Positions 35,362 to 61,168 of a stretch of 64,000 bases of DNA are shown in pieces. Location: the NCBI GenBank assembly GCA_035697485.1, contig DASSCU010000024.1:1-64000 (forward strand), in the 5' to 3' direction. Below the pieces are notes generated by a model. That model was not told the origin of the DNA, did not search any database, and saw only the letters and a program-made list of their open reading frames with translations. The position numbers and the translations under genes are program-made. Within the stretch, counting starts at the first letter, position 1; every line of letters begins with the position of its first letter. This stretch comes from Actinomycetota bacterium (GTDB lineage: Bacteria > Actinomycetota > UBA4738 > HRBIN12).

Positions 35362-38300
35362 TCATGAGGATCGGGCGACGGCCAGTTCGAGGAGCGAGTC
35401 GACCTCGGGGAGGTGCAGCTCGGCCTTGAGCGACGAGAAGACCGCCCGCGCCTCACGAAGCACCGTCAGCGACCCCGGATCGCCCATCGCGACGAGGCAC
35501 CGACCTCTCCCGAGTAGCGATTGGGCTCGTTCGGGCACCGAGAACGTCCTCCAGCCTTCTTCCGCCATCGCGTAGAGCTCCTCGGCTCGGTCGAGCTCGC
35601 CGAGTGCTTCCGCGAGCTGCGCATCGACCATCTCGAGGGAGATGCGGCGCAGCGGCATCGGGGATTCCGGGATGCCGGTCATGAGCTGCTGCGCGAACTC
35701 GACACTCACCGCACCCATCGCTACCCGCGTGATCTCAGGGAAGAAGGCCATGTTGTTGAAATCCTCACGCATGTGCGGGTAGGCCTCGAGCTCGTGGAGC
35801 GCCTCGGCGGCACGATCGACATCTCCGGTCGCGAGCGCGACCTCGGCGACGACGGCCAACTCGACCACGGGCCACGGTGCATCGAACTCCTTCGTCGCCT
35901 GCTGGATGGCCAGGCTGAGTTCGGACGCGCGTGCGAGATCGCCATGCCACGTGGATACTTCGCACGCCAATACCTGACACACGAGGCGGACTTGGGCGGC
36001 GATATCCTGGCGATCTTCGGCGAGGTAGACGGTCGTCGCCTCCAACATCTCGGCCCACCGTCCCAGGTGGAAGAGAGCCTCGGATCGAGCTCCCACCTCG
36101 AGGAACTCGGTCATCATCTGCATCCCGCTCCGTCGAGCGAGGGCAGCGCCGAGCTCGATCTCGGAGAGGGCCTCGGCCGGACCCGAGGATCCCTGGAGCA
36201 CCGTTGCGAGCTGATTGCGTCCCATGGCCGCAACGTTGACCGATCCCTGATCGATGGCGAGTTCGATGCCTTGATGGATGTCATCGATCCCGCCCATGTC
36301 ACCGCTCCAGCAACGCGCCCCGCCGCGCTGGATCCTGGCCCACGGATGGTTCGGCAGGCCGAGCTCCTGGGCGAGGGCGAGCGACCGATCGGCCCAGTCG
36401 ATCGCCTCGGCGTACTGGCCCGCTGAGGACACCCAGTTCGCCCGCAATGCGTAGGCGCTGACCAGTTCCTCCCCACGTGGAAGTCGCTCGAGCTCCGCGA
36501 CAGCCTCATCGAGCAGGCGCCAATCGGTGTCCCCTGGCGCGATCGTCGTCCAGACGACGGCGAGCATCACCTTCGCATCGGCGGCTCGGGCCGGCCTGCC
36601 GGCTGCCAGCAGGGCGGGGATCGCCTCCTCGAGGAGCTCCCGGGACCGCCCGAAGTGACCACGGGACCACTCCACCCCGGCGAGATCGCGGAGGATCTCG
36701 GCACGGACCGGGTCACCTTCGGGGGCGAGTCCGAGCGCCCGCTCGTACATTGCCTGCGCTTGCGACGCCTCGAGGCCCCTCGCGCGATCGCCCGCGAGGA
36801 CCAGGAAACGCAGCGCCTGTCGCTCCAAGCCCGACACCTCCCCGCCCGAGGCGCGCGTGAGCTCCAACGCTTCGAACCAGTGGTAGGCGAGCACGTCCGC
36901 GAGGTCCTCCACGCGCGCGCCGGCGCGCGCCTCGAGCCATCGCGCCACGGCGGTGTGCTTCTGGCCCCTGGCGGCCCGCGGGATCTGGGCGTAGGCGGCG
37001 TCGCGCACGAGCATGTGCCAGAAGGTGTATTCGCGCTCACCCTCCATCGACAACGTTCGCGAGGGGCGGAGGTACTGCTTCCTGGTGAGCTCGTGGAGGG
37101 CCTCGCGCACGTCAAGGCCATCGCGATCGCCCATCGCCTCGAGCGCCCCCGGCCAGAAGACCTTCCCGACGACCGAGGCATCGTGCAGAAGTCCCTTCCG
37201 ATCCGGCGTCAGCGTGTCGAGCCGCGCCGAGATGATCCCGTGGATGCCTTCGGGGATCGCGACCTCGGCATCCTCGGCCAGCTCCCAGGTCTCCCCACGA
37301 GCCACCAGCAGGCCGCGGTCACGCAACATCCGGACGAACTCTTCGGCGTAGAGCGGGTTCCCTCCGGCCGCCTCCACGATCGGACGCCGTACTTCGGCCG
37401 ACGGGAGGGTCGACCCGAGGAGTTCGCCGACCAGCATCGCCGTCTCCTCTCCGGAGAGGGGCGCCAGATCCACGACGGTCGCGTTGCGGAGCTCGCCGGC
37501 CCAGTGCTGGTTGCGCTCGGCGAACTCCGGACGCGCCGTGCAGACGAGGACCATCGGCACGGCCTCCGAGCGGCCCGCCACATGCTCCACGAACTCGAGG
37601 AGCGCGGGATCTGCCCAGTGGAGGTCCTCGAACACGAAGACGGCCCCACCGTGTTGGGCGAGTACCTCGAGGAATCGACCCCACGCGGTGAACGACTCCT
37701 CGCGTTCGGCGGTACTCGGCGGCTCGACTCCGACGAGCGGAGTGAGGCGGGCCTTGACCCACCCGAGCTCCTCGGACTCGAAGGGCAAGCCCTTGAGCGA
37801 GCGGTCGAGCTTCGTCTCCGCCTGTTCGGGCGAGTCGGAATCGAGGACCCCCGCCTCGGCCTTCACGATCTCGCCGAGGGCCCAGAACGCGATGCCCTCG
37901 CCGTAGGGCAGGCACCGTCCCCGGCGCCAGACCACGGTCCCGTCTCGCGCATCGACGAGGTGGGACAGCTCGTGGACCATGCGGCTCTTGCCGACACCCG
38001 GTTCGCCGACGATCGTGACGAGTTGGCGAGATCGCTGGCGGATCGCCTCGTCCAGCAGGTCCCCGAGCATCGCGCGTTCGGCATCTCGTCCGACGAGCGC
38101 GACCTCGTGTCGGCGCGTGATGTCGGTTCCGAACCGAGCACGAGCGGCGAGCGCCCTCCAGGCCGGCACGCGTCGGGCCTTGTTCTTGGCCGCGATCGCC
38201 TCGAGCGGCTCGTAGTCGAAGACGTCGCTCGTCGACAGATAGGTGGTCTCGCCGACCGCGATGCCGCCGATGGGCGCTCCGGTTTGCAGACGAGCGGCGG

Positions 38301-38784
38301 TGTTCACGACGTCGCCCGTGACGATGCCCTCCCCTCGCTCCGGGCGGGCTTCGAGCGCGACCACGACCTCGCCCGTATTGATCCCGACCCGAACCGAGAG
38401 GTCCGTTCCCCGGTCTCGGTTGAGTTGCTCGATCGCCTCGAGGATCCGTAGCCCCGCGTGGACCGCTCGCTCCGGATCGTCGTCGTGAGAGCTCGGCGCA
38501 CCGAACACCGCCATGACGGCGTCCCCGATGAACTTCTCGACGGTCCCTCCGTACGACTCGATGTCCTTGCGGAGCACCTCGTAGTAGGGCCGCACGATCG
38601 CGCGGACGTCCTCGGGGTCGGCGAGCTCCGAGCGCGACGTGAAGCCGACCAGGTCGCAGAACAGGACCGTCACGACCTTCCGCTCTTCGGCGGACGCAAG
38701 GGGTTCGGCGAGCCGGGAGCCACACCCGTTGCAGAACTTCGAGTGCTCAGGGTTCCGGTTCCCGCACGCCATGCAGGTCGGCAT
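35362..38784 (-). CDS. zinc-ribbon / class III cyclase / AAA ATPase / TPR regulator
   Basis: A 1140-residue multidomain protein. Residues 1-25 form a zinc ribbon (C4-x2-C7, C18-x2-C21). The cyclase domain (~35-200) has metal ligands Asp44 (VLFCDLVGFTS) and Asp88 (FIGDAVMAVFG), Lys84, and Asn161/Arg165 (VNTAAR), so it is potentially active. An AAA/STAND-type ATPase follows with Walker A VGEPGVGKS (259-267) and Walker B VFVFEDLHWAD (~395). The C-terminal half is helical TPR-like. Proteins of this design are common in actinobacteria, proposed to couple ligand or protein sensing to cyclic nucleotide synthesis. Leaderless start (TACGCT) at 38784. Confidence 0.9.
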   Translation of the reverse strand: MPTCMACGNRNPEHSKFCNGCGSRLAEPLASAEERKVVTVLFCDLVGFTSRSELADPEDVRAIVRPYYEVLRKDIESYGGTVEKFIGDAVMAVFGAPSSHDDDPERAVHAGLRILEAIEQLNRDRGTDLSVRVGINTGEVVVALEARPERGEGIVTGDVVNTAARLQTGAPIGGIAVGETTYLSTSDVFDYEPLEAIAAKNKARRVPAWRALAARARFGTDITRRHEVALVGRDAERAMLGDLLDEAIRQRSRQLVTIVGEPGVGKSRMVHELSHLVDARDGTVVWRRGRCLPYGEGIAFWALGEIVKAEAGVLDSDSPEQAETKLDRSLKGLPFESEELGWVKARLTPLVGVEPPSTAEREESFTAWGRFLEVLAQHGGAVFVFEDLHWADPALLEFVEHVAGRSEAVPMVLVCTARPEFAERNQHWAGELRNATVVDLAPLSGEETAMLVGELLGSTLPSAEVRRPIVEAAGGNPLYAEEFVRMLRDRGLLVARGETWELAEDAEVAIPEGIHGIISARLDTLTPDRKGLLHDASVVGKVFWPGALEAMGDRDGLDVREALHELTRKQYLRPSRTLSMEGEREYTFWHMLVRDAAYAQIPRAARGQKHTAVARWLEARAGARVEDLADVLAYHWFEALELTRASGGEVSGLERQALRFLVLAGDRARGLEASQAQAMYERALGLAPEGDPVRAEILRDLAGVEWSRGHFGRSRELLEEAIPALLAAGRPARAADAKVMLAVVWTTIAPGDTDWRLLDEAVAELERLPRGEELVSAYALRANWVSSAGQYAEAIDWADRSLALAQELGLPNHPWARIQRGGARCWSGDMGGIDDIHQGIELAIDQGSVNVAAMGRNQLATVLQGSSGPAEALSEIELGAALARRSGMQMMTEFLEVGARSEALFHLGRWAEMLEATTVYLAEDRQDIAAQVRLVCQVLACEVSTWHGDLARASELSLAIQQATKEFDAPWPVVELAVVAEVALATGDVDRAAEALHELEAYPHMREDFNNMAFFPEITRVAMGAVSVEFAQQLMTGIPESPMPLRRISLEMVDAQLAEALGELDRAEELYAMAEEGWRTFSVPERAQSLLGRGRCLVAMGDPGSLTVLREARAVFSSLKAELHLPEVDSLLELAVARSS

Positions 38785-38790
38785 GCATCG

Positions 38791-38796
38791 AGCGTA
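38791..38796 (-). promoter_or_regulatory. -10 box (TACGCT) of the large cyclase gene, leaderless
   Basis: TACGCT is 6 nt before the ATG at 38784, supporting that start over a longer upstream frame. Confidence 0.5.
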
Positions 38797-38868
38797 TGCC
38801 TCGCCCGGGAACCGCGCTCGAACCGTGCACCCTCGACGCAGCGCATCGGCCACCGGTCGCGTTCGCGC

Positions 38869-40709: not shown

Positions 40710-42368
40710 TCAGGCCTTCGGTCGGGTGCGGCGGCGTTCCTCAGAGATCGCGTGTGCGGCGCTCGCGGCCTGGGGAAGCCCGGTCACCGTGGCGAGGAAC
40801 TCCTCCTGGTCCAGAGCCCACACGGCGCCGTCGCTCGTGGCGCGCACGGTGGCGGTGCGCGGCACGTCGTGCAGCAGCGCGATCTCGCCGAAGTAGTCGC
40901 CCTCGACGGCGGTGGCGATCGCCTCGCCGTCGCGGACGATCTCGAACGACCCGGCATCGACCGCGTAGAAGCGGTCCCCGATGTCGCCCTGGCGGATCAC
41001 CTCGGTTCCCGAGGGCACCCTGATCAGGTCGAGCTGCCGGGCGATGCGCTCGAGATCCAGCGGTGGCAGCGGCGCGAACATCGGGATCCGGCGCAGCAGC
41101 GCCAGCTGGCGCTCGGGCACCACGGTGCGCTCGTCGATGCGACGCAGCCCGGGGAGTGTCGCGAGCGCGGCCACGAGCATCACTCCGCCGCAGGCGGCGA
41201 ATGCAGGCCCGAGCCCGAGCCATCGCTCGAGCAGGGGTGCGGCCGCGGCACCCGCACCGTACCCGAGGAGCCAGAGCGCCTCGACCGCGCCGAACACGCG
41301 TGTGAGCACGTCGCCGCGCACGGTGCGCTGCAACAGCGTGCGGCAGAGAACGTCCATCAGCGTGATCGCCGATCCGTACACGATCGAGGCGATCGTGACG
41401 ACGAGCACCGTGGCCGTCACGCCGTAGAGCACCGCGCTCACCGTGAACCACGCGGCCGAAAGCACGATCGCCAATGCGAGACGCCGCCGGGCCGCGAGCA
41501 CGACCGATGCGGCGGCGCCCACGAGGAGCCCGACGCTGATCATCGTCGTCACGTAGCCCACGCCCGGATCGCCGAGCGCGAGCTCCTCGAGCGCGAGCGG
41601 CACCGTGAGCACACCGACCGCCCCCACCGTCGCGGTGAGCACCGCGGTGATCGCAACGGGCGGTCGCGCGTCGGGCGACCGCACCACCGTCGTGAGGCCG
41701 TGCCACGCGTCGGTGAGCAGGGACCAGGGCCGGAACGCCTCTCGAGCACGTGCATCAGTTGGGGCGTGCACCCCGAGCGTGGTCACGACCGCGAGGAAGA
41801 GCGAGAGGGCGGCGAGCCCGTACACGGCGCCGGCGCCCGAGACCGCGAGCATCACTGTGGAGGCGATCGATCCGATCGTGCCCCCGACGCCTTCCATCAG
41901 CGACGAGACGGAGTTGGCGGCGGCGAGCTCCTCAGGCGTGCGGGCGAGCCCAGGCAGCAGCGCGTGGTGGTTCGGCCGGCCGGTCGTGTACGTGATCGCC
42001 GCGAGCGTTGCGAGCCCGTACACGAGAACAGCGGCGGCGTCGGTGGCGATCGCGATGCCGACCGCGGCGGTCGTGACCGCCTGGGCGAGGTACCCGAACC
42101 GCACGACCCGCTCCTTCGGGAACCGATCGCCGAGCGAGGCCACCAGCGGGGCGAGGATGCCGGCGGGCACCATCAGCAAGATCGTGACGAACCCGGCTGC
42201 CCGCGTGCCCCCACGATCGAACGCGTAGACGAGGATCGCCACCCACATCGCGGGTTCCGCGACGTTGAACAACAGGAACGCCAGCTCCATGCGGGTGATG
42301 GGCCTGTTCCCGAGCACGCCCCTGAGGGCGCGGAGCGGCGGACCGAGGTGCGCGAGCAGCCGGTTCAC
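40710..42368 (-). CDS. MFS transporter fused to a cyclic-nucleotide-binding domain
   Basis: A 552-residue fusion. Residues 1-~415 are an MFS permease (12 helices, SLGDRFPKERVVRFGYLAQA loop after helix 2). Residues ~425-540 are a CAP-family cNMP domain with the phosphate-binding cassette GDYFGEIALLHDVPRTATVR, retaining the Glu and Arg that bind the cyclic phosphate, so it should bind cAMP. The soluble domain is joined to the last helix by a linker. A class III cyclase is encoded within 10 kb. The GTG at 42368 follows TACCCT by six bases (leaderless). Substrate unknown. Confidence 0.9.
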   Translation of the reverse strand: MNRLLAHLGPPLRALRGVLGNRPITRMELAFLLFNVAEPAMWVAILVYAFDRGGTRAAGFVTILLMVPAGILAPLVASLGDRFPKERVVRFGYLAQAVTTAAVGIAIATDAAAVLVYGLATLAAITYTTGRPNHHALLPGLARTPEELAAANSVSSLMEGVGGTIGSIASTVMLAVSGAGAVYGLAALSLFLAVVTTLGVHAPTDARAREAFRPWSLLTDAWHGLTTVVRSPDARPPVAITAVLTATVGAVGVLTVPLALEELALGDPGVGYVTTMISVGLLVGAAASVVLAARRRLALAIVLSAAWFTVSAVLYGVTATVLVVTIASIVYGSAITLMDVLCRTLLQRTVRGDVLTRVFGAVEALWLLGYGAGAAAAPLLERWLGLGPAFAACGGVMLVAALATLPGLRRIDERTVVPERQLALLRRIPMFAPLPPLDLERIARQLDLIRVPSGTEVIRQGDIGDRFYAVDAGSFEIVRDGEAIATAVEGDYFGEIALLHDVPRTATVRATSDGAVWALDQEEFLATVTGLPQAASAAHAISEERRRTRPKA

Positions 42369-43162: not shown

Positions 43163-44299
43163 TCAGGCGCCGAACCAGCGCGCTCGTCGGTCGGCACCGA
43201 ACGCCGCCTTCTCGGCGGCTGTCGCCGCGGTCGGAGCGGTGAACGCCGTGATCGGGTGGCCCGGCGTCGAGAAGAAGTCGACGTCGATGCGGGCGACCTC
43301 GTCGTCACCGAACTCGATCCAGCACGCGCCGGTGCCGTCGAAGCCGGCGGGCTCGTCCCACCCGCGGATGCGTGCGATCAGCTGGTCGGCAACCACGCGG
43401 GCCGCGCGCTCGGCGAAGACGCCGGCCCTGGGCGTGCCCACGCTCGTCACATCGCCCACCGCGTACACGCCGGGGAAGCGGGTCGCGAGCGTTCCCTTGT
43501 CCACGGGGATCCAGCCGTCCTCCGTCATGCCCGACGCCTCGACCACCGCGGGCGCCCGGTGCACCGGGACGCCGAGGAAGAGGTCGTAGGGCAGGCGCGT
43601 GCCGTCGTCGAGCACGGCCTCGTGCGTGGCCTGGTCGAGCGATGCGACCTTCCGGTCGGGCACGAACTCGATGCCGCGCTCGGCGAACCTCGCGAGGATC
43701 GCCTCCGAGGTCTCGGGCGCGGGTGGGATCGGCCTGCCGAACGGCATCACGACCTGGATCCGGACGTCGTGGCGGACTCCGCGCTCGCGTGCGTACTCGT
43801 CGAGAAGCAGCGCCGCCTCACTCGGCGCCGGCGGGCATTTGAACGAGGGTCCGCAGACGCCCACGATCGCCGTGCCCGACCGGAACGACGGGAGCACCTC
43901 GCGCAGAGCCTCGGCTCCCGTGAACGAGTAGAACTCGTTCCCGGCTTCGGTGAGTCCCGGTGTGGCCGGGAGGTCGTAGTCGGCGCCGAGCGCCACCACC
44001 ACCACGTCGGCCTCATAGGTGTCGAGGTCGGTCACGATCCGACGGGCCTCGGGGTCGATCGCGGTGACGGTCTCCTGCCGGAATCGCACGCGCGGCGTGG
44101 TGATGTCCCCGTACCGGAGACGGACCGCGTCCGGAGCGCGGGTACCGAACATCACGTCGAGCTTGGAGAAGCCGAAGACGAACGCGTCGGCCCGGTCGAT
44201 CAGGGTGACGTCGACCTGGTCGCCGAGCTCCTCCGACAGCCGAGTGGACAGTTCCAGGCCACCGAAGCCGGCCCCGAGGACGAGCACAGAAGTGGACAT
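43163..44299 (-). CDS. FAD/NAD(P)-dependent oxidoreductase, sulfide:quinone reductase-like
   Basis: A 378-residue flavoprotein. The N-terminal FAD Rossmann motif is VLVLGAGFGGLELSTRL, the second motif YAVGDVTSVGTPRAGVFAER. The segment CGPSFKCPPAPSEAALLLDE holds the Cys positions used in sulfide:quinone reductases and flavocytochrome c sulfide dehydrogenases. It may reduce a quinone with a low-potential donor, or handle sulfur. It has its own leaderless start (TATCCT six bases ahead) and lies 22 bp after the cupin, so it is both linked to and partly independent of the operon. Confidence 0.85.
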   Translation of the reverse strand: MSTSVLVLGAGFGGLELSTRLSEELGDQVDVTLIDRADAFVFGFSKLDVMFGTRAPDAVRLRYGDITTPRVRFRQETVTAIDPEARRIVTDLDTYEADVVVVALGADYDLPATPGLTEAGNEFYSFTGAEALREVLPSFRSGTAIVGVCGPSFKCPPAPSEAALLLDEYARERGVRHDVRIQVVMPFGRPIPPAPETSEAILARFAERGIEFVPDRKVASLDQATHEAVLDDGTRLPYDLFLGVPVHRAPAVVEASGMTEDGWIPVDKGTLATRFPGVYAVGDVTSVGTPRAGVFAERAARVVADQLIARIRGWDEPAGFDGTGACWIEFGDDEVARIDVDFFSTPGHPITAFTAPTAATAAEKAAFGADRRARWFGA

Positions 44300-44305
44300 G
44301 CCCAG

Positions 44306-44311
44306 AGGATA
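44306..44311 (-). promoter_or_regulatory. -10 box (TATCCT), leaderless flavoprotein transcript
   Basis: TATCCT is 6 nt before the ATG at 44299, giving the last gene of the cluster its own promoter. Confidence 0.5.
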
Positions 44312-44321
44312 GGCCGACGGA

Positions 44322-44705
44322 TCAGAACCCCTCGTCGAACTCCTCGTCGGTCACGGGCTCGCCCCACTCGACCGCGCCGGCGGTCACCGCCACGTGCACC
44401 ATCGGCGCCGTGCGCGATCCCCCGTGGAAGTGCCACTCGTCGGGACCGACGTGGATCACGTCGCCCGGTTCGAGCGCGTGGCCCGCCTCGCCGCGCGTGC
44501 GCACGCGGCCGCGTCCGCTGATCGCGTAGAGGAACTGCCCGGCGGGGTGGCGGTGCCAGCGCGTGCGGGCATCGGGTGCGAAGTGCACGACTCCGACGGT
44601 CGTGCCGGCCCCGTCGCCGAGCGCCGATCGGATCCACACCTCGCCGGTGAACCGGGCCTCGTCGCCCCGTTCGAACGTGCCGTCGATCGCCGGTGCGACA
44701 TCCAT
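44322..44705 (-). CDS. cupin-domain protein
   Basis: A 127-residue cupin with ARTRWHRHPAGQFLYAISGR (His-x-His and Gln) and EPGDVIHVGPDEWHFHGGSR (second His pair), so metal binding is likely. The ATG is 19 bp downstream of the enamidase stop with GAGGAGG upstream. It may isomerise or hydrate a product of the ring-opening pathway, or be a regulator; sequence does not decide. Confidence 0.85.
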   Translation of the reverse strand: MDVAPAIDGTFERGDEARFTGEVWIRSALGDGAGTTVGVVHFAPDARTRWHRHPAGQFLYAISGRGRVRTRGEAGHALEPGDVIHVGPDEWHFHGGSRTAPMVHVAVTAGAVEWGEPVTDEEFDEGF

Positions 44706-44724
44706 CGCTGCCTCCTCTTCCGAT

Positions 44725-45888
44725 CTAGCTCGTGAACACCACCGGTCGCATCGCCGGCGGTGTGTTGCGGCTCTTCGTGAAGCGCGGGACCCCGTCGATG
44801 ACCGACGTGACGACTGCGGGCGTGTCCCCGATCCCGAGGGCGTCGAGCGCGTCGTCGGCCTGCGAGCCGAGCGGGGCGTCCATCACGAGCAGGTCGGCCT
44901 CCCGACCCGCCGCGACGACGCCGGTGTCGAGGCCGTGCAGGGATGCGACGTTCCCCGTGGCGGCGGCGACCGCCACCGCCGGCTCCACCCCGCCGAGCGA
45001 GGCCACCCACGAGATCGCCCTGAGCATGCCGAGCGGCTGCACGCCGGATCCAGCGGGGCTGTCGGTGCCGATCACGAGGCGGTCGAGCTCCGACCGGCTC
45101 GCGACGAGGGCCGCGGCCTCCCCGGCGGCCTTCACGTTCCCGTTGTGAACCACCTCGACCCGCGACGAGGTCTCCGCCAGGATGCGTTCGACGTGGTCGA
45201 GCGGCAAGGCGGTGGGTCCTCCGTTCACGTGGCCGGCCACGTCGGGCTGCACCGCCACCACGAAGTCGGCACCGACGATGCCGCTGCCGGGGATCGACGC
45301 GCCGCCGGTGTGCACCATGACGCGCATGCCGTGCGCCTGCGCCCAGCGGGTCATCCGGGCGGCCTCGTCGGGATCCTTCACGCCCGAGATGCCGATCTCG
45401 CCGACGAGGTCGACGCCGGCGGCGGCCATCTCCGCGAAGTCGTCCTCGGTCAGTCCCGGTTCCAGCAGCACGGCCCCCGCGTGCACCTTCACCCCCGAGG
45501 GCCGGAGCTTCGCGAACGCGTTGTGGGCGAGGATCGCGAGGGCCTTCACGCTCGCCGGATCGGTCGGACGCCCTGGCGTGTGCGGCTCCCCGGCCGAGAT
45601 CATCGTCGTCGTGCCGCCGTGCAGGTAGGAGTCGATGAACCCGACCTGGGTCTGTCGCGGCGTGAAGTCGCCGAGCACCGGGTGCGTGTGATCGTCGCAG
45701 AGGCCCGGGGTGACGGTCGCGCCGGCGGCGTCGATCACCGTCGAGATGCCCGAGGGGTCGGCGCCGGCCTCGGCGCCGACGAACTCGATCACGCCGCCGC
45801 GCACGACGACCGTGTCGCCCTCGGCGATCGGGGCCGCCACGTCGCCGCTCACGATCGTGCCGGCGTTGCGGATCACCAGGTCGCTCAC
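44725..45888 (-). CDS. enamidase-like amidohydrolase (metal-dependent)
   Basis: A 387-residue amidohydrolase-superfamily protein. The metal site begins GLCDDHTHPVLGDFTP (HxH), with GEIGISGVKD in the position of the bridging ligand region, HTGGASIP and TDSPAGSG containing the later His and Asp. In Eubacterium barkeri nicotinate fermentation, enamidase opens 1,4,5,6-tetrahydro-6-oxonicotinate to 2-formylglutarate, and this protein resembles that group. The GTG overlaps the upstream stop in GTGA. It sits directly after the reductase-like and accessory genes, the order expected for hydroxylase, reductase, hydrolase. Assignment to this exact substrate is inference. Confidence 0.75.
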   Translation of the reverse strand: MSDLVIRNAGTIVSGDVAAPIAEGDTVVVRGGVIEFVGAEAGADPSGISTVIDAAGATVTPGLCDDHTHPVLGDFTPRQTQVGFIDSYLHGGTTTMISAGEPHTPGRPTDPASVKALAILAHNAFAKLRPSGVKVHAGAVLLEPGLTEDDFAEMAAAGVDLVGEIGISGVKDPDEAARMTRWAQAHGMRVMVHTGGASIPGSGIVGADFVVAVQPDVAGHVNGGPTALPLDHVERILAETSSRVEVVHNGNVKAAGEAAALVASRSELDRLVIGTDSPAGSGVQPLGMLRAISWVASLGGVEPAVAVAAATGNVASLHGLDTGVVAAGREADLLVMDAPLGSQADDALDALGIGDTPAVVTSVIDGVPRFTKSRNTPPAMRPVVFTS

Positions 45889-46463
45889 CGCAGGCCGTCT
45901 TCCCCCGCGATCTCCGAGACCTGCAGCCCTCCGACCCGCGGCAGCGGGCGTCCTCCGTCGGTGACGGCGACGGCGATCACCAGCTCGTCGTCGGCCGGCG
46001 CATCGACGATGCGCAGCTCGACGGCGTCGAAGTGGCTGCGCACGAACGCCGCGTCCTTGTAGTGGAGCGGCACGTCGAGCGTGACCCCGGGACCTCCCCG
46101 CTTCTTCGACGACGGGATGATCGCCTTCCCCCCGCCGCACGCGTCACGCAGCGGCGCCCCGAACTCCGGGTGCAGGAAGGCGGCCACGTGCTCGAGCTCA
46201 CCCTTCATGCCCGCGATGCCGCCCTTCCCGTAGCTGTGCACCGGACGGCCGGCGAGCTGCTCGACCGCGGTGACGGAGAGCAGCCGCGAGAGCTCGACGC
46301 TGTCGGCAATCATCTCTCCGAGGTCCTCGACGTAGCGGCCGGCGAACGGGTTCTGCAGCACGGCGGCGGTGACGACCCGGCGGATCGGCGGGTCGACCGC
46401 CTGCCCGACCTCGCGCCGCACGTCCTCGACGATCGAGACGACCTTCCGGATGTCCGTCGCCAT
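45885..46463 (-). CDS. AA_synth (DUF1185) family protein
   Basis: A 192-residue protein of the 'amino acid synthesis' family: IRKVVSIVEDVRREVGQ, RVVTAAVLQNPFAGRYVEDL, YGKGGIAGMKGELEHVAAFL, GKAIIPSSKKRGGPGVTLDV and VPLHYKDAAFVRSHFDAVEL. Biochemical function is unproven; members occur in clusters for N-heterocycle breakdown beside 6-hydroxynicotinate reductase and UPF0280. ATG at 46463 overlaps the previous stop (TGATG); GTG at 46466 is also possible. Its stop overlaps the enamidase start. Confidence 0.85.
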   Translation of the reverse strand: MATDIRKVVSIVEDVRREVGQAVDPPIRRVVTAAVLQNPFAGRYVEDLGEMIADSVELSRLLSVTAVEQLAGRPVHSYGKGGIAGMKGELEHVAAFLHPEFGAPLRDACGGGKAIIPSSKKRGGPGVTLDVPLHYKDAAFVRSHFDAVELRIVDAPADDELVIAVAVTDGGRPLPRVGGLQVSEIAGEDGLR

Positions 46464-47323
46464 CACCCCCCGACGGCGGACGCTAGCACGGGGGTCGCGA
46501 CGGTCGCGACCCGGTCGCCGAGGCAGAGCACCGCGGCGGCGATCAAGCCCCCGGCCCGCATCCGCTCGGCCTCGGTGCCGCCCGCGCGCAGGGCGCGGGC
46601 GACTTCGGCGTCGGTGAGCGCGCCCACCTCCGCCGTCACCATGGTCGAGCCGAGGTCGGTGTCCGGTTCCAGCTCGTTCGCGGGCACGCGCCGGATCGAC
46701 CGGTGCCCGGGCAGATCGACCGCGTTGGCGATCAGGGTCGCGGCGGCGTCGGCCCGGGCCGCGGTGTCGGCCAGGACCGTCACGGCGTCGGCGATGCCGA
46801 GCGAGAAGCTCCGGCCGTGACGCCCGCTCGTCGCGACCCCGCGCACGGGATCGTCGTGGCGCACCGTGGCCTTGCCCAGCAGCGCCGGCCGGTCCGGCAC
46901 CGGCACGAGCCCCACGTCGAGGGTCTCGCCGGGCGTCAGGAACAGGGCGATGTCGCCGCCGTCGTTCACGAAGGCGCGGCGCAGCTCGCCGCCGCTCACC
47001 ATCACCGCGCAGATCTCGTCGGCGACGGCCCCCGCGACGGCCGCCATCGGCGTGATGAACCGATCGCCGAACGGGCGAACGGCCGCGGCCATGCGCCTCG
47101 CCACCCGGCCTGTGAGCGCCTCGCCCTCGCCGAGCGGTCGGCGCAGGGTGGGCAGCTCGGCGACCAGCTCGTCAAGCAGCGGCTGGAACCGCTCCCAGGC
47201 GCGCCGGTAGGCGTCGGCCACCTCGACCGGTGGACCCCACGCCTCGACGATCAGGTCGATCGGGCCGTGCTGCAGGTGCAGGCGCGACCCGTCGGGCGTC
47301 GTCGCCGCGACCGGCCCGCTCAT
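46463..47323 (-). CDS. UPF0280 family protein (ApbE-like fold)
   Basis: A 286-residue UPF0280 member: HLQHGPIDLIVEAWGPPVEV at the N-terminus, RFITPMAAVAGAVADEICAV, RRAFVNDGGDIALFLTPGE and RGVATSGRHGRSFSLGIADA later, the motifs shared with the ApbE flavin transferase fold. The NDGGDIAL segment corresponds to the metal/FAD region of ApbE. Its function is unknown, but its place between the Fe-S reductase-like and AA_synth genes suggests cofactor assembly or catalysis for the pathway. Start ATGA overlap with the reductase stop. Confidence 0.85.
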   Translation of the reverse strand: MSGPVAATTPDGSRLHLQHGPIDLIVEAWGPPVEVADAYRRAWERFQPLLDELVAELPTLRRPLGEGEALTGRVARRMAAAVRPFGDRFITPMAAVAGAVADEICAVMVSGGELRRAFVNDGGDIALFLTPGETLDVGLVPVPDRPALLGKATVRHDDPVRGVATSGRHGRSFSLGIADAVTVLADTAARADAAATLIANAVDLPGHRSIRRVPANELEPDTDLGSTMVTAEVGALTDAEVARALRAGGTEAERMRAGGLIAAAVLCLGDRVATVATPVLASAVGG

Positions 47324-48738
47324 GCGCGACGCACGTCCGGTCGCGCGAGCACGTCGTCCAGGGTGACGATCGCGTCCATGTGTCCGCCGAGCGCCGCGTA
47401 GGCGTCGCGGCGCATCGTGAACTCGAGCGGGGCGACCACCGCGGGCGTGGGCACGTAGCCGAACGCGCCCGGCGGCACGAGCGTCACGTCGACCATGAAC
47501 GTGATGCCGCCCCCCGGCCAGACGTAGACGGGCGCCCCCCCGCACGTGACCCTCGTGATCGTCTGACGAACCGCGCGGGTAAGAGCCACGGGGTTCTCCG
47601 TGGCGCCGGCCCGCAGCGAGCCGCCTGCACCCGCGATGAACAAGACGGACGTCAGAGCCGGTTCGCAGTTCTCCGTGATGCGCTCGACCGACCGGCGCAG
47701 ATCGTCCGGGAGCGGCGCCGGCACGGGCCGCAACTCGTCGTCGAGCACGAAGTACGCGTGGTGCTCGCCCGTCGTCCCGATCATCAGCACCGTGAGGCCC
47801 GGCCGGGCCACCTCGGGGTCGAACTCGTCGAGGATCGTGAGCGGATCCTCGATGTCGGTGCCGCCCCACCCGGTGCCGGGCTTGGCCACGTTGAAGTAGC
47901 GGCCGGGCGTCGACCGGCGTCCCTTGACCGTGATGCCGGTCGCGGGGATGTCGAGGTAGCGCCCCGCCTGGTGCTCGGAGAGCACGCCGGTGATGTGGTC
48001 GTCGAGGACCACCACCTCGTCGACGTGCTCGTACCACTGCTGCGCGAACATGCCGATCGTCGCCGAGCCGCACCCCACCCGCATGCGTTCCTCCACGACG
48101 CCGTTGATGACCGGCGGCTCACCTGCCCGCAGCACGAGGTCGGACCCTTCGTCGACCGAGAGCTCGACCGGCTCGCGGCTGCAGAGCGCGAGCAGCGTCT
48201 GCATCGTCGCCATGCCCTCGCGTTTGGTGCCACCGGTGAGGTGGTTCACGCCGCCGAGCGAGAGCATCTGCGACCCGTACTGACCGGTCGTGACGTGGCC
48301 GACGGCCTCCCCGCGAGCACGCACGAGCCGGCGCTCGGCACCCACGTGGCGATCGGTGTCGATCTTCACGTCGACGCCGCAGTAGCTGAAGATCGCCTCG
48401 GTCACGACCGTCACCGTGTCGACCCCTGCGACGCTCGACGACACGATGAACGGCGCCGGCTTGTAGTCGGGATACGTCGTGCCCGATCCGGCGCCGGTCA
48501 CGACCACGTCGCCGGTCTCGACGAGCTCGCCGTCCCAGTCGGACTCGCGGGCGGCGAACGGCACCAGGGCGCCGCCCCGTTCCTGCGTGCGCTCGAGCAC
48601 CAGCAGCGGGTCGAGCCGCGCGAGCACCCCGTCGACGTTGCCGTAGCGATCGCACGAGCCGGCGCGCCCGGGCTTGATCACGCACCGGATCGGGCAGGCG
48701 TCACAGACGACGGTGTCGTGGGCCGGCTCGGCGGTCAT
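47320..48738 (-). CDS. 6-hydroxynicotinate reductase-like iron-sulfur protein
   Basis: A 472-residue protein resembling 6-hydroxynicotinate reductase (Hnr) of E. barkeri. The N-terminus carries a four-Cys cluster: VCDACPIRC (12, 15, 19) and SCDRYG (29). Further motifs: SSSVAGVDTVTVVTEAIFSY, GSQMLSLGGVNHLTGGTKRE, KPGTGWGGTDIEDPL and FIAGAGGSLRAGATENPVAL. Hnr reduces the pyridine ring with ferredoxin-type electrons, a step unexpected in an ordinary aerobic actinomycete. The start lies at the junction with the molybdenum hydroxylase gene, and the stop overlaps UPF0280. Substrate is inferred from resemblance and neighbours. Confidence 0.72.
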   Translation of the reverse strand: MTAEPAHDTVVCDACPIRCVIKPGRAGSCDRYGNVDGVLARLDPLLVLERTQERGGALVPFAARESDWDGELVETGDVVVTGAGSGTTYPDYKPAPFIVSSSVAGVDTVTVVTEAIFSYCGVDVKIDTDRHVGAERRLVRARGEAVGHVTTGQYGSQMLSLGGVNHLTGGTKREGMATMQTLLALCSREPVELSVDEGSDLVLRAGEPPVINGVVEERMRVGCGSATIGMFAQQWYEHVDEVVVLDDHITGVLSEHQAGRYLDIPATGITVKGRRSTPGRYFNVAKPGTGWGGTDIEDPLTILDEFDPEVARPGLTVLMIGTTGEHHAYFVLDDELRPVPAPLPDDLRRSVERITENCEPALTSVLFIAGAGGSLRAGATENPVALTRAVRQTITRVTCGGAPVYVWPGGGITFMVDVTLVPPGAFGYVPTPAVVAPLEFTMRRDAYAALGGHMDAIVTLDDVLARPDVRRA

Positions 48739-51476
48739 CGCGAGACGCCTCCCTGCGCGATCGCGGCGAGCACGCGATCTGGCGTCGCCGGCAGCCGACG
48801 CACCCCCGCGCCCACCGCGTCACGGATCGCGTTGAGGATCGCGGGGGCGGTCGGGATCAGCGTGTGCTCGCCGATGCCCTTCGCGCCGTACGGCCCGGCA
48901 GGGTCGCCGGACTCCACGAGGATGCTCATGACCTCGGGCACGTCGCCGATCGTGGGGATCAAGTAGTCGTGCAGGTTCTCGTTCCCGCCGGGAACGTACT
49001 CCTCCATCAGCGCCATGCCGACGCCCTGGGCGATGCCGCCCTCGATCTGGCCCTCGACGAGCGTCGGGTTCACCGCCCGCCCGACGTCGTGGGCCGCCGT
49101 GATGCGGCGCAGATGCACCGTGCCGAGCTCGAGGTCGACGTCGAGCTCGGCGAGGTGCGCGCCGTACCCGAACTGCGCGTAGGGGTCGCCCTGGCCGTCG
49201 GCGTCGAGGACCGTGGTCGGCGGGTCGTAGGTCTCGCTCGCGACCGCCACCAGACCGTCGGCGTCGGCGTCGAGCGAGGCGAGATCCATGGTCGTCATCG
49301 CCCCGCGATCGTGCACGACCAGGCGGGGACCGTCGAGCTCGAGGTGGGCCTCGTCGGTGGCGCCCGCGAGCACCAGCAGTCGCTCCCGGAGCGCCGTCGC
49401 CGCCATGAACGTCGCGTTCCCCGACACGAACGTCTGCCTCGACGCGGAGCTCTTCCCCGCGTCGGGCGTCGAATCGGTGTCGGCGCCGAGCGTGACGATG
49501 CTCGAGATATCGATGCCGAGCGCGTCGGCGCAGATCTGCGTCATGACCGTGTTGGCGCCCTGCCCCATGTCGATCGCACCCTGGAAGAGCGCTACGCGCC
49601 CGTCGCTACGGAGCCCGACCTTGATCGTCGAGGGGTTCGCGAGCGCCGTGTTCCCGCAGCCGTACCACATGCCGGCGAGCCCGACGCCGCGCCGGGCCGA
49701 CGATGGCGAGGCATTCGCCTCGGTCGCCTCCGCGACGGCCCGTTCCCGGTGCGGCCGCAGGGCCTCGAGGCACTCTCGGTAGCCGACGCCCGACGCGAAG
49801 ACCTGACCGGTGACCGTCGGCACCCCTTCGGTGAGCGCGTTGCGGTACCGGAACTCGAGTCGATCGATGCCGAGCGCATCGGCGAGCTCGTCGAACAGGC
49901 ACTCCTGGGCGACGGTCGACTGTGGCACGCCGAACCCGCGGAACGCGCCCGCCGGCGGCCCGTTCGTGTGCACGGCGACGGTCCGCGCACGATACGCGTC
50001 GTAGACGTAGGGGCCGCCGGCGTGCACCGGCACGCGGTTGGCGACGGTCGGCCCCCACGACGCGTACGCGCCGGTGTCGAACTCGCCCGTGAAGTCCAGC
50101 GCCCTCAGGCGTCCGTCGCGCGTCGCGCCGACGCGAACGCGCAGCCGCGAGGGATGCCGCTTCGTGGTCGACATCATCGACTCGGGGCGGGTGTAGGCGA
50201 GCCGCACCGGACGGCCCAGCTTCCACGCGGCGAGCGCGAGGAACGGCTGCACCGAGAGGTCGAGCTTGCTGCCGAACCCGCCGCCGACCGCGGTGGGCTT
50301 GATCCGCACCGCGCCGTCGGGGAGCCCGAGGATCGCCTCGAGCTCGGCACGGTCCATGTGCGGGGATTGCGTCGTCGCCTGCACCTCGACCCGGTCCCCG
50401 ACGCGCTCGGCGTACCCGGCCTCGGGCTCGATGTAGGCGTGCTCGATGAAGACGGTCTCGAACACGCCCTCGACCTCGACGTCCGCCGACGCGAGCGCGG
50501 CGTCGACGTCGCCGCGACGCACGTTGCCGCGCACGAGCACGTTCCGGTCGCGCTCGTCGTGCATCCTCGGCGCGTCGGAAGCCTGCGCGTCGTCGATCGA
50601 CAGCAGGGGCGGCAGCTCGTGCCAGGTGACCGGGAACGACGAGAGATCCTGGGCCGCCATCGCCGCCGGCTCGCCGACGACCATCGCGACCGCTTCGCCG
50701 CGGAACCGCACCGCGCCCTCGGCGAACACCGGCTGGTCCGCGGTCGCCGGGATCACGCCGAACCGGTTGCGGCCGTCGATGTCGGCCGCGGTCAGCACCG
50801 CCTCGACGCCCGGCGTGGCGTCGGCGTAGGCCGCCAGGTCGCCGAGGGTGAAGCTCGCCCGATGGTAGGGCGAGCGCACGACGCGGATCGCGAGTGCCCC
50901 GTCGGGCGCCTCGTCGGCGCCGAAGATGTCGATGCCGCGCACCTTGCGGTCGCCGTCGACCCGCCACACACGCTGCCCCACGGCCTTGCCGACCGGAGGG
51001 GACGGCGCCTCGGAAGGCTCGTCCACCCGGGCACCGATCACGGCCGCGACGATCTTCCGGTAGCCGGTGCACCGGCAGAGCACACCCCCGAGGGCGTCCA
51101 TCACCTGCGACTCGGAGGGGCTCGGCGTCGCCCGCAGCAGTGCCGCCGACGCGACCAGCATCCCCGGCGTGCAGATGCCGCACTGCGCGCCGCCGTGGGC
51201 GTGGAACGCCCACTGGAGGACCTCGATCTCGCCGCTCGCGTCGAGCCCCTCGAGGGTGTCGACGTGCCGACCCTCGAGGCTTCCCACCGACGTCATGCAG
51301 GCGGCGACCGGAGCGCCGTCGACGAGCACCGTGCACGCGCCGCAGTCGCCGGCATCGCACCCCACCTTCGTCGCCGTGAGTCCGAGGTCGTCACGCAGCG
51401 CCTCGCTCAGGCGGCGCGCGGACCGCTCGAGCGTCACCGAGGATGCGTTCACGGTGAACGTGGTGGACCCGCTCAC
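48735..51476 (-). CDS. xanthine dehydrogenase-family molybdoenzyme, fused [2Fe-2S] and molybdopterin subunits
   Basis: A 913-residue fusion. Residues ~1-155 are the 2Fe-2S subunit: VGCDAGDCGACTVLVDG (plant-type cluster) and QCGICTPGM with VLCRCTGYRK (alpha-helical cluster). Residues ~160-913 are the molybdopterin subunit: GGGFGSKLD, AGAFRGFGVPQST, MGQGANTVMTQICADALG and the catalytic Glu in GAKGIGEHTLIPTAPA. Family enzymes hydroxylate N-heterocycles next to nitrogen using water; in the nicotinate pathway this makes 6-hydroxynicotinate. GTG start overlaps the FAD subunit stop (GTGA). The fusion of small and large subunits is less common than separate genes. Confidence 0.92.
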   Translation of the reverse strand: MSGSTTFTVNASSVTLERSARRLSEALRDDLGLTATKVGCDAGDCGACTVLVDGAPVAACMTSVGSLEGRHVDTLEGLDASGEIEVLQWAFHAHGGAQCGICTPGMLVASAALLRATPSPSESQVMDALGGVLCRCTGYRKIVAAVIGARVDEPSEAPSPPVGKAVGQRVWRVDGDRKVRGIDIFGADEAPDGALAIRVVRSPYHRASFTLGDLAAYADATPGVEAVLTAADIDGRNRFGVIPATADQPVFAEGAVRFRGEAVAMVVGEPAAMAAQDLSSFPVTWHELPPLLSIDDAQASDAPRMHDERDRNVLVRGNVRRGDVDAALASADVEVEGVFETVFIEHAYIEPEAGYAERVGDRVEVQATTQSPHMDRAELEAILGLPDGAVRIKPTAVGGGFGSKLDLSVQPFLALAAWKLGRPVRLAYTRPESMMSTTKRHPSRLRVRVGATRDGRLRALDFTGEFDTGAYASWGPTVANRVPVHAGGPYVYDAYRARTVAVHTNGPPAGAFRGFGVPQSTVAQECLFDELADALGIDRLEFRYRNALTEGVPTVTGQVFASGVGYRECLEALRPHRERAVAEATEANASPSSARRGVGLAGMWYGCGNTALANPSTIKVGLRSDGRVALFQGAIDMGQGANTVMTQICADALGIDISSIVTLGADTDSTPDAGKSSASRQTFVSGNATFMAATALRERLLVLAGATDEAHLELDGPRLVVHDRGAMTTMDLASLDADADGLVAVASETYDPPTTVLDADGQGDPYAQFGYGAHLAELDVDLELGTVHLRRITAAHDVGRAVNPTLVEGQIEGGIAQGVGMALMEEYVPGGNENLHDYLIPTIGDVPEVMSILVESGDPAGPYGAKGIGEHTLIPTAPAILNAIRDAVGAGVRRLPATPDRVLAAIAQGGVSR

Positions 51477-52312
51477 CGGTCGTCTCCACAGCTCGCGATC
51501 ACGCGACGCACGAGCACCGAGGCTGCCGCCCGCCGGTAGTCGGCCGGCGCGCGGACGTCGTCGATCGGGTCGAGGGCCTCGACGTGCCGGACGACCGTCG
51601 CCATGTCGACGTCGGCCGGCGCCCGGCCCACGAGCTCCGACTCGAGCGACCGCAGCCGCTGCGCCACCGGCGAGCACGCCCCCACGGCCACCCGGGCCTC
51701 GGCGATGGCGCCGTTCGCGTCGGGGAGGACGACGGCCGACACCATCACGACCGAGATCACGAGGTAGCGCCGCAGGCCCAGCTTGAAAAAGGCCGAACGC
51801 GCGCCGTCGGCCACGCGGGGGACGACCACGGCGGTCAGCAGCTCGTCGGGGCCGAGCGCCGTCTGCCGATAGCCGGTGAGGAACGACTCGAGCGCGAGCG
51901 ATCGGGTGCCGCTCGCCGAGGTCAGGTCCACCGACGCGTCGAGGGTGAGCAGCGCGGGGACGCCGTCGGCGGCCGGCGAGGCGTTGCACAGGTTGCCGCC
52001 GATCGTGCCCGCCTGTTGCACCTGGACGGCGCCGACCTCGCGCGCGGCGGCCCGGAGGCCGTCGAACGCCGGTGGCAGCGCGGCGGCGGCCACGTCGGCC
52101 CAGCGCGTGAGGGCACCGAGGCGGACGCCGCCGGGCGTCTCGACGATGCCTCGCAGGTCGGTGAGCCCGCCGATGTCGACCACACGCTCAGGCATGGGCC
52201 GTCCGACGTGCTGCGGGTACAGGTCGGTCCCTCCGGCCAGCACCGTGTAGCCCGCGCCCCGCATCTCGAGGGCGGCGGCGAGATCGGCCGGCACCACGTA
52301 GTCCACGGGCAT
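51473..52312 (-). CDS. FAD-binding subunit of xanthine dehydrogenase-family enzyme
   Basis: A 279-residue FAD subunit: VLAGGTDLYPQHVGRPMPER and VQVQQAGTIGGNLCNASPAA are the two FAD-binding loops, followed by the CO_deh_flav_C domain with FFKLGLRRYLVISVV and VAVGACSPVAQRLRSLE. It passes electrons from the 2Fe-2S clusters to its acceptor. First gene of the six-gene coupled operon; AGGGGAG is ahead of its ATG and TAAGCT about 15 bases further upstream could be the operon -10 box. Confidence 0.93.
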   Translation of the reverse strand: MPVDYVVPADLAAALEMRGAGYTVLAGGTDLYPQHVGRPMPERVVDIGGLTDLRGIVETPGGVRLGALTRWADVAAAALPPAFDGLRAAAREVGAVQVQQAGTIGGNLCNASPAADGVPALLTLDASVDLTSASGTRSLALESFLTGYRQTALGPDELLTAVVVPRVADGARSAFFKLGLRRYLVISVVMVSAVVLPDANGAIAEARVAVGACSPVAQRLRSLESELVGRAPADVDMATVVRHVEALDPIDDVRAPADYRRAAASVLVRRVIASCGDDR

Positions 52313-52376: not shown

Positions 52377-53927
52377 TCAGTCCCAGAGCAGGCCGTGCTG
52401 CATCGCGAACATCGCCGCGGCTGCCCGCGTCGAGACGCCGATCTTCCCGTAGATGTGCTGCACGTGGTGCTCGGCCGTGCGCGGCGAGATCACGAGCGCC
52501 TGGGCGACCCCTCGGTTGGACTCGCCACGCGCCACCAGTCGCAGCACCTCGACCTCGCGATCCGACAATCCCGCCGGCCAGGTGTGCTGCCTCACCGGGC
52601 GTGAGCGTCCGGCCGCGGCGAGCACCGCCTCCACGCATTCGGAGTCGAAACGGCCCTCCAGCAGCTGCGAAGACACGACGTCGGCGGCCCGTTCGGGATC
52701 CAAGGCCGCGCGATAGGGGCGCGGCTGCGTCATCGCCTGGAACGCGTCGGCGACCGCGATCACCCGGGCGGCCGGGGGCGTGTCCGCGGCCGTGGCCCCG
52801 CGATGGTAGCCCGAGCCGTCCAGCCGCTCGTGGTGCATCGAGGCCGGGCGAGCGAGCGGCTCGAGCGAGCTCGAGCGCATCAGGATGCGTTCGGTGTGGT
52901 AGGGGTGCAGCCGGACACGCTCCCACTCGGTCGTGCTCAGCGGACCACGCTTCTCCCAGACGACGGCGCCGACCGCGGTACGACCGAGATCGTGCAACAG
53001 CCCTGCGAGGCGCACCGAGCCGGGATCGGGCAATCCGAGGCGTTCGGCCGCGCTCGCGGCGAGGCCCGCGACTCCCGAGGAATGCCCCAGGGTGACCGTG
53101 GACCTGAGGTCGACCATGTCGGCGAACGCCTCGGCCACGTGTTCGAGCCGGCCGGCTTCCACCGTGCGCACGGGCGTCGGCTCGGCGTCGAGCACCGCCG
53201 TCCACGGATCCTCGTCGTCGAGACGCTCCAGCATCTTCGGGCCGATCGCCCGGAAGGCCTCGACCGCCGCCGGGTCGAACATGCCGCCCGAGCGACGATC
53301 CATCATGGCGAGCGCCCCGTCGACCCCCCCGAGCCGATGGAAGATGACAGCCTGGGTCGCAGGCTCGGCGACGCGGGCCGCGAAGGCGATGTCCTCGCCG
53401 GCGAGCCCCTGTGGTGCGCCCTTGCCGTCCCAGCGCTCGATCGTTTGGTACAGGGCCTGCGTGACGTCCTCGCCGAGGTGCAGCCGCTCGGACATCTGGG
53501 TCGCCACCTCGCAGATCGCCTGGAAGATCGCCATCGTCTCGGCCCGACCCGTGGCGGTGCGGACCACGTGGCCCGTCCGCCGCAGTCCGGTGCCGCGGCC
53601 GACCGCACTCAGGAACGCGAGCAGTTCCCGCGGGTCGGCGTCGTCGGTCCGCTCGGCCAGCGGACGCATGGCGAGGTCGTCGCCGAAGAGCCTGGTTTCC
53701 TCGTGTGACGTGGCCGTGCAGCCGAGGTGCTTCAGCAACGTCGTGTAGTAGACGCATGCGACGTCGGCGTCGGACGCGTCGAGGTGCCGGGCCATCGCGG
53801 TCGCCAGCACGCATGCGCGGACCGCCTTCTCCGGCGGCTGGCCCATCGCCAGGTCCGTCGTGAGGGAGAGGGCCGCGAGCAGGTCCGCGAGACGGAGCGC
53901 GTCCGGCACGTCGACCCAGCATGGCAC
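52377..53927 (-). CDS. tandem HD-GYP protein with C-terminal LuxR helix-turn-helix
   Basis: A 516-residue protein. The second HD-GYP domain (about 265-420) keeps HD at 312-313 (LAGLLHDLGRTAVG) and HHERLDGSGYHRG at 365-377, with His in place of the Pro of GYP. An N-terminal copy (residues ~20-200) has decayed motifs (YYTTLLKHLGC, ERWDGKGAPQGLAGED). Residues ~450-516 are a LuxR-type DNA-binding domain (LSDREVEVLRLVARGESNRG). It may couple cyclic-dinucleotide hydrolysis or binding to transcription. It reads toward the heterocycle operon 64 bp downstream and is a good candidate for its regulator. GTG start with AAGGGG. Confidence 0.88.
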   Translation of the reverse strand: MPCWVDVPDALRLADLLAALSLTTDLAMGQPPEKAVRACVLATAMARHLDASDADVACVYYTTLLKHLGCTATSHEETRLFGDDLAMRPLAERTDDADPRELLAFLSAVGRGTGLRRTGHVVRTATGRAETMAIFQAICEVATQMSERLHLGEDVTQALYQTIERWDGKGAPQGLAGEDIAFAARVAEPATQAVIFHRLGGVDGALAMMDRRSGGMFDPAAVEAFRAIGPKMLERLDDEDPWTAVLDAEPTPVRTVEAGRLEHVAEAFADMVDLRSTVTLGHSSGVAGLAASAAERLGLPDPGSVRLAGLLHDLGRTAVGAVVWEKRGPLSTTEWERVRLHPYHTERILMRSSSLEPLARPASMHHERLDGSGYHRGATAADTPPAARVIAVADAFQAMTQPRPYRAALDPERAADVVSSQLLEGRFDSECVEAVLAAAGRSRPVRQHTWPAGLSDREVEVLRLVARGESNRGVAQALVISPRTAEHHVQHIYGKIGVSTRAAAAMFAMQHGLLWD

Positions 53928-61116: not shown

Positions 61117-61155
61117 CCCAACGGCCCTCCGGAGCATCGAGTCTCGGGACTGGCG

Positions 61156-61161
61156 TACTGT
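61156..61161 (+). promoter_or_regulatory. -10 box (TACTGT) of the cyclase-like/ATPase gene, leaderless
   Basis: TACTGT is 7 nt before the second ATG at 61169 and 4 nt before the first at 61166, which favours 61169 as the start. Confidence 0.45.
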
Positions 61162-61168
61162 TCCGATG

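Follow-up and report, generated by a model that had tools for sequence, protein, structure and literature searches.

The 64,000-nucleotide stretch analysed here (the window), positions 1 to 64,000 of contig DASSCU010000024.1 in the Actinomycetota genome assembly GCA_035697485.1, carries on its minus strand an operon that, judging from homology to characterised enzymes, very probably specifies a three-step pathway, the upper part of nicotinate (vitamin B3) catabolism by the reductive route. Within this operon, a protein of the UPF0280/COG2122 family is the obligate partner of 6-hydroxynicotinate reductase (Hnr), and UPF0280 and a further protein of the AA_synth family belong to two separate units, not to one block. 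The pathway has been described before in clostridia and in numerous proteobacteria, and the operon extends it into an actinobacterial lineage. Taken as a whole, an explanation that joins this pathway to roles for UPF0280 and AA_synth and to a route of electron supply is, in our estimation, likely.

Organisation and conservation of the operon

Six genes follow one another on the minus strand from 52312 to 44725, with a 4-base ATGA or GTGA overlap at each of the five junctions:

51473..52312, minus strand: predicted flavin adenine dinucleotide (FAD) subunit of nicotinate dehydrogenase (PF00941, 1.2e-40; PF03450, 7.4e-12; 66-71% identity in sister genomes)
48735..51476, minus strand: predicted fused 2Fe-2S/molybdopterin subunit of nicotinate dehydrogenase, 913 amino acids (aa) (Fer2, Fer2_2, MoCoBD_1, MoCoBD_2)
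47320..48738, minus strand: predicted Hnr, 472 aa (homology to plasmid-borne and clostridial Hnr)
46463..47323, minus strand: UPF0280/COG2122 protein, 286 aa, proposed to act in the maturation of Hnr (NF003322, ApbE fold, position 3' of Hnr)
45885..46466, minus strand: AA_synth (PF06684, DUF1185), 193 aa, proposed to take part in ring opening (PF06684, 7e-67)
44725..45888, minus strand: predicted enamidase, 387 aa (PDB 2VUN, E = 2e-125)

Downstream of the enamidase gene, a cupin gene follows after a gap of 19 base pairs (bp) and a flavoprotein gene after a further 22 bp. A preliminary description of this DNA had reported six overlapping minus-strand genes with a cupin and a flavoprotein close behind; the frames, overlaps and gaps were re-computed and agree, all eight frames lying at these positions with no internal stops. 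The domains found (FAD_binding_5; Fer2, Fer2_2 and both molybdenum cofactor (MoCo) domains on a single chain; PF06684; Amidohydro_1; Cupin_2; Pyr_redox_2) likewise agree with it.

The comparison of gene order that the same description had proposed showed that all six genes keep their order, at 66-80% identity, in locus L142 from another genus of the host's family, and that the five-gene order FAD subunit, fused molybdenum subunit, Hnr, UPF0280 and AA_synth is identical in Fuscovulum (L009) and Sulfitobacter (L012). The operon is therefore not a chance arrangement. Hnr is rare in the sampled phylum, a convincing one having been found in 4 of 397 genomes.

Three probable core enzymes of reductive nicotinate catabolism

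The FAD, two [2Fe-2S] and MoCo domains of the putative nicotinate dehydrogenase are encoded together, which is the make-up of the xanthine dehydrogenase family. Compared across one shared region of 415 residues, the molybdenum subunit has as its best solved relative the nicotinate dehydrogenase of Eubacterium barkeri (280 bits), followed by 4-hydroxybenzoyl-CoA reductase (166), aldehyde oxidoreductase (154), xanthine dehydrogenase (137) and carbon monoxide dehydrogenase (110). A grouping of the molybdoenzyme with carbon monoxide dehydrogenases or aldehyde oxidases, which the preliminary description had named as counter-evidence, was looked for and did not occur, and the scores of 110 and 154 bits against 280 refute an assignment to either. 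The MoCo protein is a single fused chain, not two subunits as in E. barkeri. Chains of this fused type score above 900 bits in 18 Hnr loci, a count in which the window and its own-genome copy (L001) are included, and since the same fusion occurs in aerobic relatives, it marks a subtype and not a function.

Homologous over its full length, Hnr shares 60-66% identity with plasmid-borne Hnr proteins of Pseudomonadota, many of them annotated as 6-hydroxynicotinate reductase, 60-69% with those of aerobic Pseudomonadota and Acidobacteriota, and 43% with those of Bacillota, including the one in a complete clostridial nicotinate-fermentation locus (L015). In a quick tree it groups with the sequences from Pseudomonadota and Acidobacteriota, apart from clostridial Hnr, the clostridial branches being long. 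No Pfam family matched the protein, and its AlphaFold model (predicted local distance difference test (pLDDT) 84.6) had no significant fold match in the PDB; the glycine-cleavage T-protein barrel, considered as a candidate fold, gave weak, non-significant matches only. Seven cysteines are nearly invariant in the Hnr alignment (C12, C15, C19, C29, C120, C223 and C358), and two segments stand out:

48652..48705, minus strand: Hnr residues 12-29, motif CxxCxxxC-x9-C, probable Fe-S ligands (kept in 53-55 of 56 Hnr sequences)
48442..48498, minus strand: Hnr residues 81-99, TxxGxxTTYPDYKPAPFIV, a nearly invariant loop and candidate site of flavin attachment or binding (conservation)

By its conservation, the loop is the best candidate for a flavin site in Hnr; it overlaps residues 51-90, which are of low confidence in the AlphaFold model.

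The third enzyme is 52% identical over 379 aa to the E. barkeri enamidase (2VUN), and the ligands of its binuclear metal centre (HxH, Glu, two His and Asp) are all kept, each of them being invariant. Close homology of this kind to characterised enzymes is the reason for proposing three successive steps. The FAD subunit and the fused 2Fe-2S/molybdenum subunit would hydroxylate nicotinate to 6-hydroxynicotinate; Hnr, as an Fe-S flavoenzyme, would reduce this to 1,4,5,6-tetrahydro-6-oxonicotinate; and the enamidase would hydrolyse the latter to 2-formylglutarate and ammonia, the 2-formylglutarate then presumably being metabolised by enzymes encoded outside the operon. The preliminary description had likewise proposed that nicotinate is hydroxylated, reduced and opened, and this is upheld in that all three core enzymes match the E. 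barkeri pathway best. A scan of the genes surrounding the operon revealed none for downstream processing of 2-formylglutarate, the whole genome not having been searched for them.

UPF0280 is the partner of Hnr

The UPF0280 protein scores 388.2 bits against the NCBIfam model NF003322 (curated cut-off 290) and AA_synth 224.7 bits against PF06684 (cut-off 27); thus, both of these hidden Markov model checks, suggested at the outset, lie above the cut-off. Related loci were collected by scanning genome contigs with an enamidase alignment, giving 80 named loci in a set that this procedure biases toward AA_synth-enamidase pairs. UPF0280 lies on the same strand as Hnr and no more than 400 bp downstream of it in 53 of the 55 testable loci; in the remaining two (L025 and L028), probably frame-overlap artefacts, it still stands beside Hnr in the map. 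Of 30 enamidase genomes, 19 contain Hnr, and exactly these contain UPF0280 as well; both are absent from the remaining 11, bar one partial match (E = 6e-4). Across the 397 genomes of the phylum, the UPF0280 family is bimodal, comprising four strong Hnr-type members and roughly 85 weaker ones, and the strong type (E below 1e-98) is present exactly in the four Hnr genomes.

The Hnr state changes three times on the enamidase tree, with two independent pairs on supported branches, which limits what these counts can support; because shared ancestry leaves only two to three independent pairs, we attach no significance level to the co-occurrence. The adjacency kept across phyla is stronger evidence than the co-occurrence counts, and it is guilt by association.

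A separate observation concerns a soil Bacillota metagenome-assembled genome (MAG; G397, loci L014 and L116), in which two Hnr-UPF0280 copies reside in clusters that differ from each other; this points either to two substrates or to redundancy.

UPF0280 as a possible maturation factor

The AlphaFold model of UPF0280 (pLDDT 94), submitted to Foldseek, matched nothing but DVU1097, which is a relative from the UPF0280/COG2122 family, and some 40 chains of ApbE flavin mononucleotide (FMN) transferases, with ApbE matches down to E = 1.5e-5 and the next other match at E = 0.28. When the UPF0280 and ApbE profiles were compared, the central region aligned (P = 4e-5, probability 70%), with the Mg-ligand region and the ATS and GGD segments retained. 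The Mg-ligand positions were located as follows:

46736..46750, minus strand: UPF0280 residues 192-196 (DAAAT), the ApbE Mg-ligand positions DxxxT (conservation)

Of 43 Hnr-type sequences, all have D192 and 42 have T196; the equivalent residues are present in 26/26 and 25/26 members of the family associated with homocysteine synthesis. UPF0280 thus has the fold and the Mg-ligand positions in common with ApbE, the FAD:protein FMN transferase (PF02424). It differs from that family in having no Pfam match to PF02424 and in lacking, in the profile comparison, two stretches that true ApbE has, DxGGxxKG and HxIDPxTG, and for these reasons we do not file it as an ApbE.

That UPF0280 is a maturation factor of some kind for Hnr appears reasonably likely. 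A flavin installer is suggested because an ApbE-fold protein is strictly tied to an enzyme whose E. barkeri form reportedly contains covalently bound flavin together with Fe-S clusters (Alhapel et al. 2006); in this more doubtful proposal, UPF0280 would load the flavin of Hnr or attach it covalently. Several observations weigh against flavin transfer. The two missing stretches belong here, and the host also carries an ordinary ApbE. The canonical ApbE attachment motif [ST]GA[TS] was not found in Hnr at the family level, where the loop reads [AS][GST]T[TSN]YP. Finally, the homology of COG2122 seems not to extend to the flavin-binding region of ApbE (PMC5764234).

A different, similarly tentative explanation is that UPF0280 is not a flavin transferase and instead serves Hnr as a sulfur-trafficking or Fe-S maturation factor, in the manner of MA1715, a COG2122 member of Methanosarcina described as a sulfur-trafficking protein (PMC12068725). 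Homocysteine synthesis in Desulfovibrio requires COG2122 in addition to DUF39 and NIL/ferredoxin, the cofitness of COG2122 with DUF39 being r = 0.98 (PMC5764234), and the absence of parts of the ApbE catalytic region from UPF0280 is compatible with such a role. One Cys just before TS[SA]G is invariant in homocysteine-type COG2122 (26/26, loci L152-L177); Hnr-type members as a rule do not have it, L015 being a possible exception, which makes a Cys-based sulfur relay unlikely as a function shared by both branches. No Cys column of Hnr-type UPF0280 exceeds 44%, and some members contain 0-1 Cys. What the two branches do share are NGGD, TSxG and the DxxxT Mg-ligand positions of the ApbE fold, and an ApbE-like core can be, on these residues, the function common to Hnr-type and homocysteine-type members.

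Relation to homocysteine synthesis

The COG2122/DUF39/NIL-ferredoxin system of Methanosarcina and Desulfovibrio resembles the Hnr-UPF0280 pair in that the same family, with the same core residues, is tied in each to one reductive partner. When 41 relatives were searched for DUF39, the weaker form of UPF0280 was found exactly in the four with DUF39, bar one marginal match (E = 1.6e-5). The two systems differ in the Cys described above and in that Hnr has no sequence similarity to DUF39. Kinship of Hnr and DUF39 was considered because it would have explained the common UPF0280 partner, and was rejected at the level of sequence profiles (Hnr against DUF39/HcyBio, hhalign probability 0.2%; one of the four DUF39 rows proved to be a wrongly picked frame).

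A joint reading, in which UPF0280/COG2122 would be a divergent ApbE-type flavin installer for both Hnr and DUF39/COG1900 and AA_synth an undescribed second enamide ring-opening enzyme, is speculative and on balance rather unlikely. If it is true, Hnr and DUF39/COG1900, the homocysteine sulfurtransferase, would both be Fe-S flavoproteins whose flavin is covalently bound or loaded in a special way, and AA_synth would be misnamed after neighbouring transporter genes. The link between UPF0280 and a reductase that reportedly carries covalent flavin makes the need for COG2122 in homocysteine synthesis testable, and one test of the UPF0280 family could answer both questions, that of Hnr and that of DUF39/COG1900.

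AA_synth accompanies the enamidase

In AA_synth, the Glu/His/Arg set of the crystal structures is conserved (E89, E91, H92, H98, H144, R172 and R176). The gene is present in 28 of the 30 enamidase genomes, 9 of which belong to the 11 that have no Hnr, and in most of these Hnr-less cases (Chloroflexota, Bacillota, Acidimicrobiaceae and Ancylobacter) it lies beside or near the enamidase gene. Two AA_synth copies occur in 34 of 56 Hnr loci, and the residues common to both are E89, E91, H92, H98, K80, K120, K121, S118, H144, R142, R172 and R176. We tentatively propose that AA_synth acts at the ring-opening step, where, as a partner of the enamidase, it might assist or finish ring opening and deamination, although our confidence in this assignment is limited.

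The family owes its name to a chorismate-mutase-like fold and to branched-chain amino-acid transporter genes nearby (PMC2954203), which would support a function in regulation or amino-acid synthesis that has nothing to do with ring opening. We consider such a function improbable. The same transporter type is present in Hnr/AA_synth clusters (Fuscovulum L009 and Sulfitobacter L012), so that the name probably reflects substrate-uptake genes, and the pairing of AA_synth with the enamidase recurs in Pseudomonadota, Bacillota, Chloroflexota and Actinomycetota. A relationship of AA_synth to cyanuric acid hydrolase/barbiturase (PF09663) was also tried and rejected (hhalign probability 0.3%).

In Chloroflexota (L017, L018 and L145), enamidase and AA_synth genes occur with genes for a short-chain dehydrogenase/reductase, an epimerase, an isochorismatase-family protein and an oligopeptide-type transporter, in a genome without Hnr; this cluster is probably a different enamide-forming pathway.

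Comparison with known nicotinate clusters

The preliminary description had called the operon unusual, a judgement that does not stand: the fused molybdenum subunit, the aerobic setting and the missing downstream genes all recur in dozens of Pseudomonadota. The cluster was published as early as 2012, and Bradyrhizobiaceae SG-6C carries it and grows on nicotinate and 6-hydroxynicotinate (PMC3511419); judging from Bradyrhizobium loci, two members of the published cluster are most likely UPF0280 and AA_synth. The proteobacterial clusters (Azorhizobium caulinodans, Bradyrhizobium and Sulfitobacter, among others; PMC3511419) have the same order of FAD subunit, fused molybdenum subunit, Hnr, UPF0280 and AA_synth with the enamidase nearby. 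The present operon differs from them in its actinobacterial host, in the enamidase gene being joined directly, in having one AA_synth copy and not the usual two, and in that the cupin and a flavoprotein resembling sulfide:quinone oxidoreductase (SQR) replace a ferredoxin-NADP reductase and an ABC transporter. By best homology, the first three enzymes are also those of the E. barkeri cluster (ndhFSLM, hnr, ena and downstream genes), where, however, the molybdenum protein is split from the 2Fe-2S domain (3HRD chains A and B); here one chain joins them, the genes for processing 2-formylglutarate are not adjacent, and the host probably respires oxygen.

The clostridial locus L015 holds an E. barkeri-type set by domain content: a HIBADH-type dehydrogenase, a B12-binding mutase, a PrpF isomerase, MutL, an ICL/PEP mutase (isocitrate-lyase-type lyase) and SDH_alpha (serine-dehydratase-type), alongside enamidase, Hnr, UPF0280 and AA_synth. 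Since both UPF0280 and AA_synth are in this cluster, they belong to the fermentative pathway too. In L143, one of the four Hnr genomes of the phylum, a HIBADH-type dehydrogenase gene, by family the next E. barkeri step, follows AA_synth. The L015 sequence (L015:1-17187) comes from a Clostridiales Family XIII MAG and has a sigma-54 regulator gene between UPF0280 and AA_synth.

The same enzyme set might instead act on another pyridine or N-heterocycle, such as a substituted nicotinate. The molybdenum hydroxylase family switches substrate readily, the similarity of the molybdenum subunit to the E. barkeri enzyme is only moderate (the 280 bits over 415 aa given above), and related Hnr loci contain different molybdenum enzymes, with HyuAB hydrolases standing where an enamidase would be expected close by. 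Nevertheless, we regard a different substrate as quite improbable, because each of the three core enzymes independently indicates the nicotinate pathway, and the other contexts are nicotinate pathways as well (the clostridial fermentation-type L015 and the nicotinate-growing SG-6C).

Three loci (L008, L010 and L013) combine Hnr, UPF0280 and AA_synth with HyuA/HyuB-type hydantoinase/oxoprolinase genes, with no enamidase nearby; HyuA/HyuB is a possible replacement ring-opening enzyme there.

Flanking genes, host and window

Three further minus-strand genes adjoin the six:

44322..44705, minus strand: cupin, same transcription unit (PF07883)
43163..44299, minus strand: SQR-like FAD/NAD(P) flavoprotein, which may supply electrons (PF07992, 1e-22; type III SQR below cut-off)
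52377..53927, minus strand: HD-GYP/LuxR-type protein (HD_5 and GerE domains, C-terminal LuxR-type helix-turn-helix)

A homologue of the flavoprotein (69%) lies near the operon in a sister genome (L144), and electrons for Hnr would probably pass through this linked flavoprotein as the counterpart of the proteobacterial ferredoxin-NADP reductase. The cupin gene is inverted in the sister genome L142, where it adjoins the operon, and a cupin is also found near AA_synth-enamidase in the Chloroflexota loci L017 and L018. The host genome contains two heme-copper oxidase genes, which make an oxygen-respiring host likely and the earlier wording of a probable aerobe a fair one.

The HD-GYP/LuxR-type gene, on the same strand 64 bp upstream of the operon, is a possible regulator. 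Elsewhere in the window there are three adenylate/guanylate-cyclase-domain genes (35362-38853, minus strand; 61049-63805, plus strand; 30479-31702, plus strand), two of them with AAA/TPR-type domains, and a major facilitator superfamily transporter gene with a cyclic-nucleotide-binding domain at 40710-42368.

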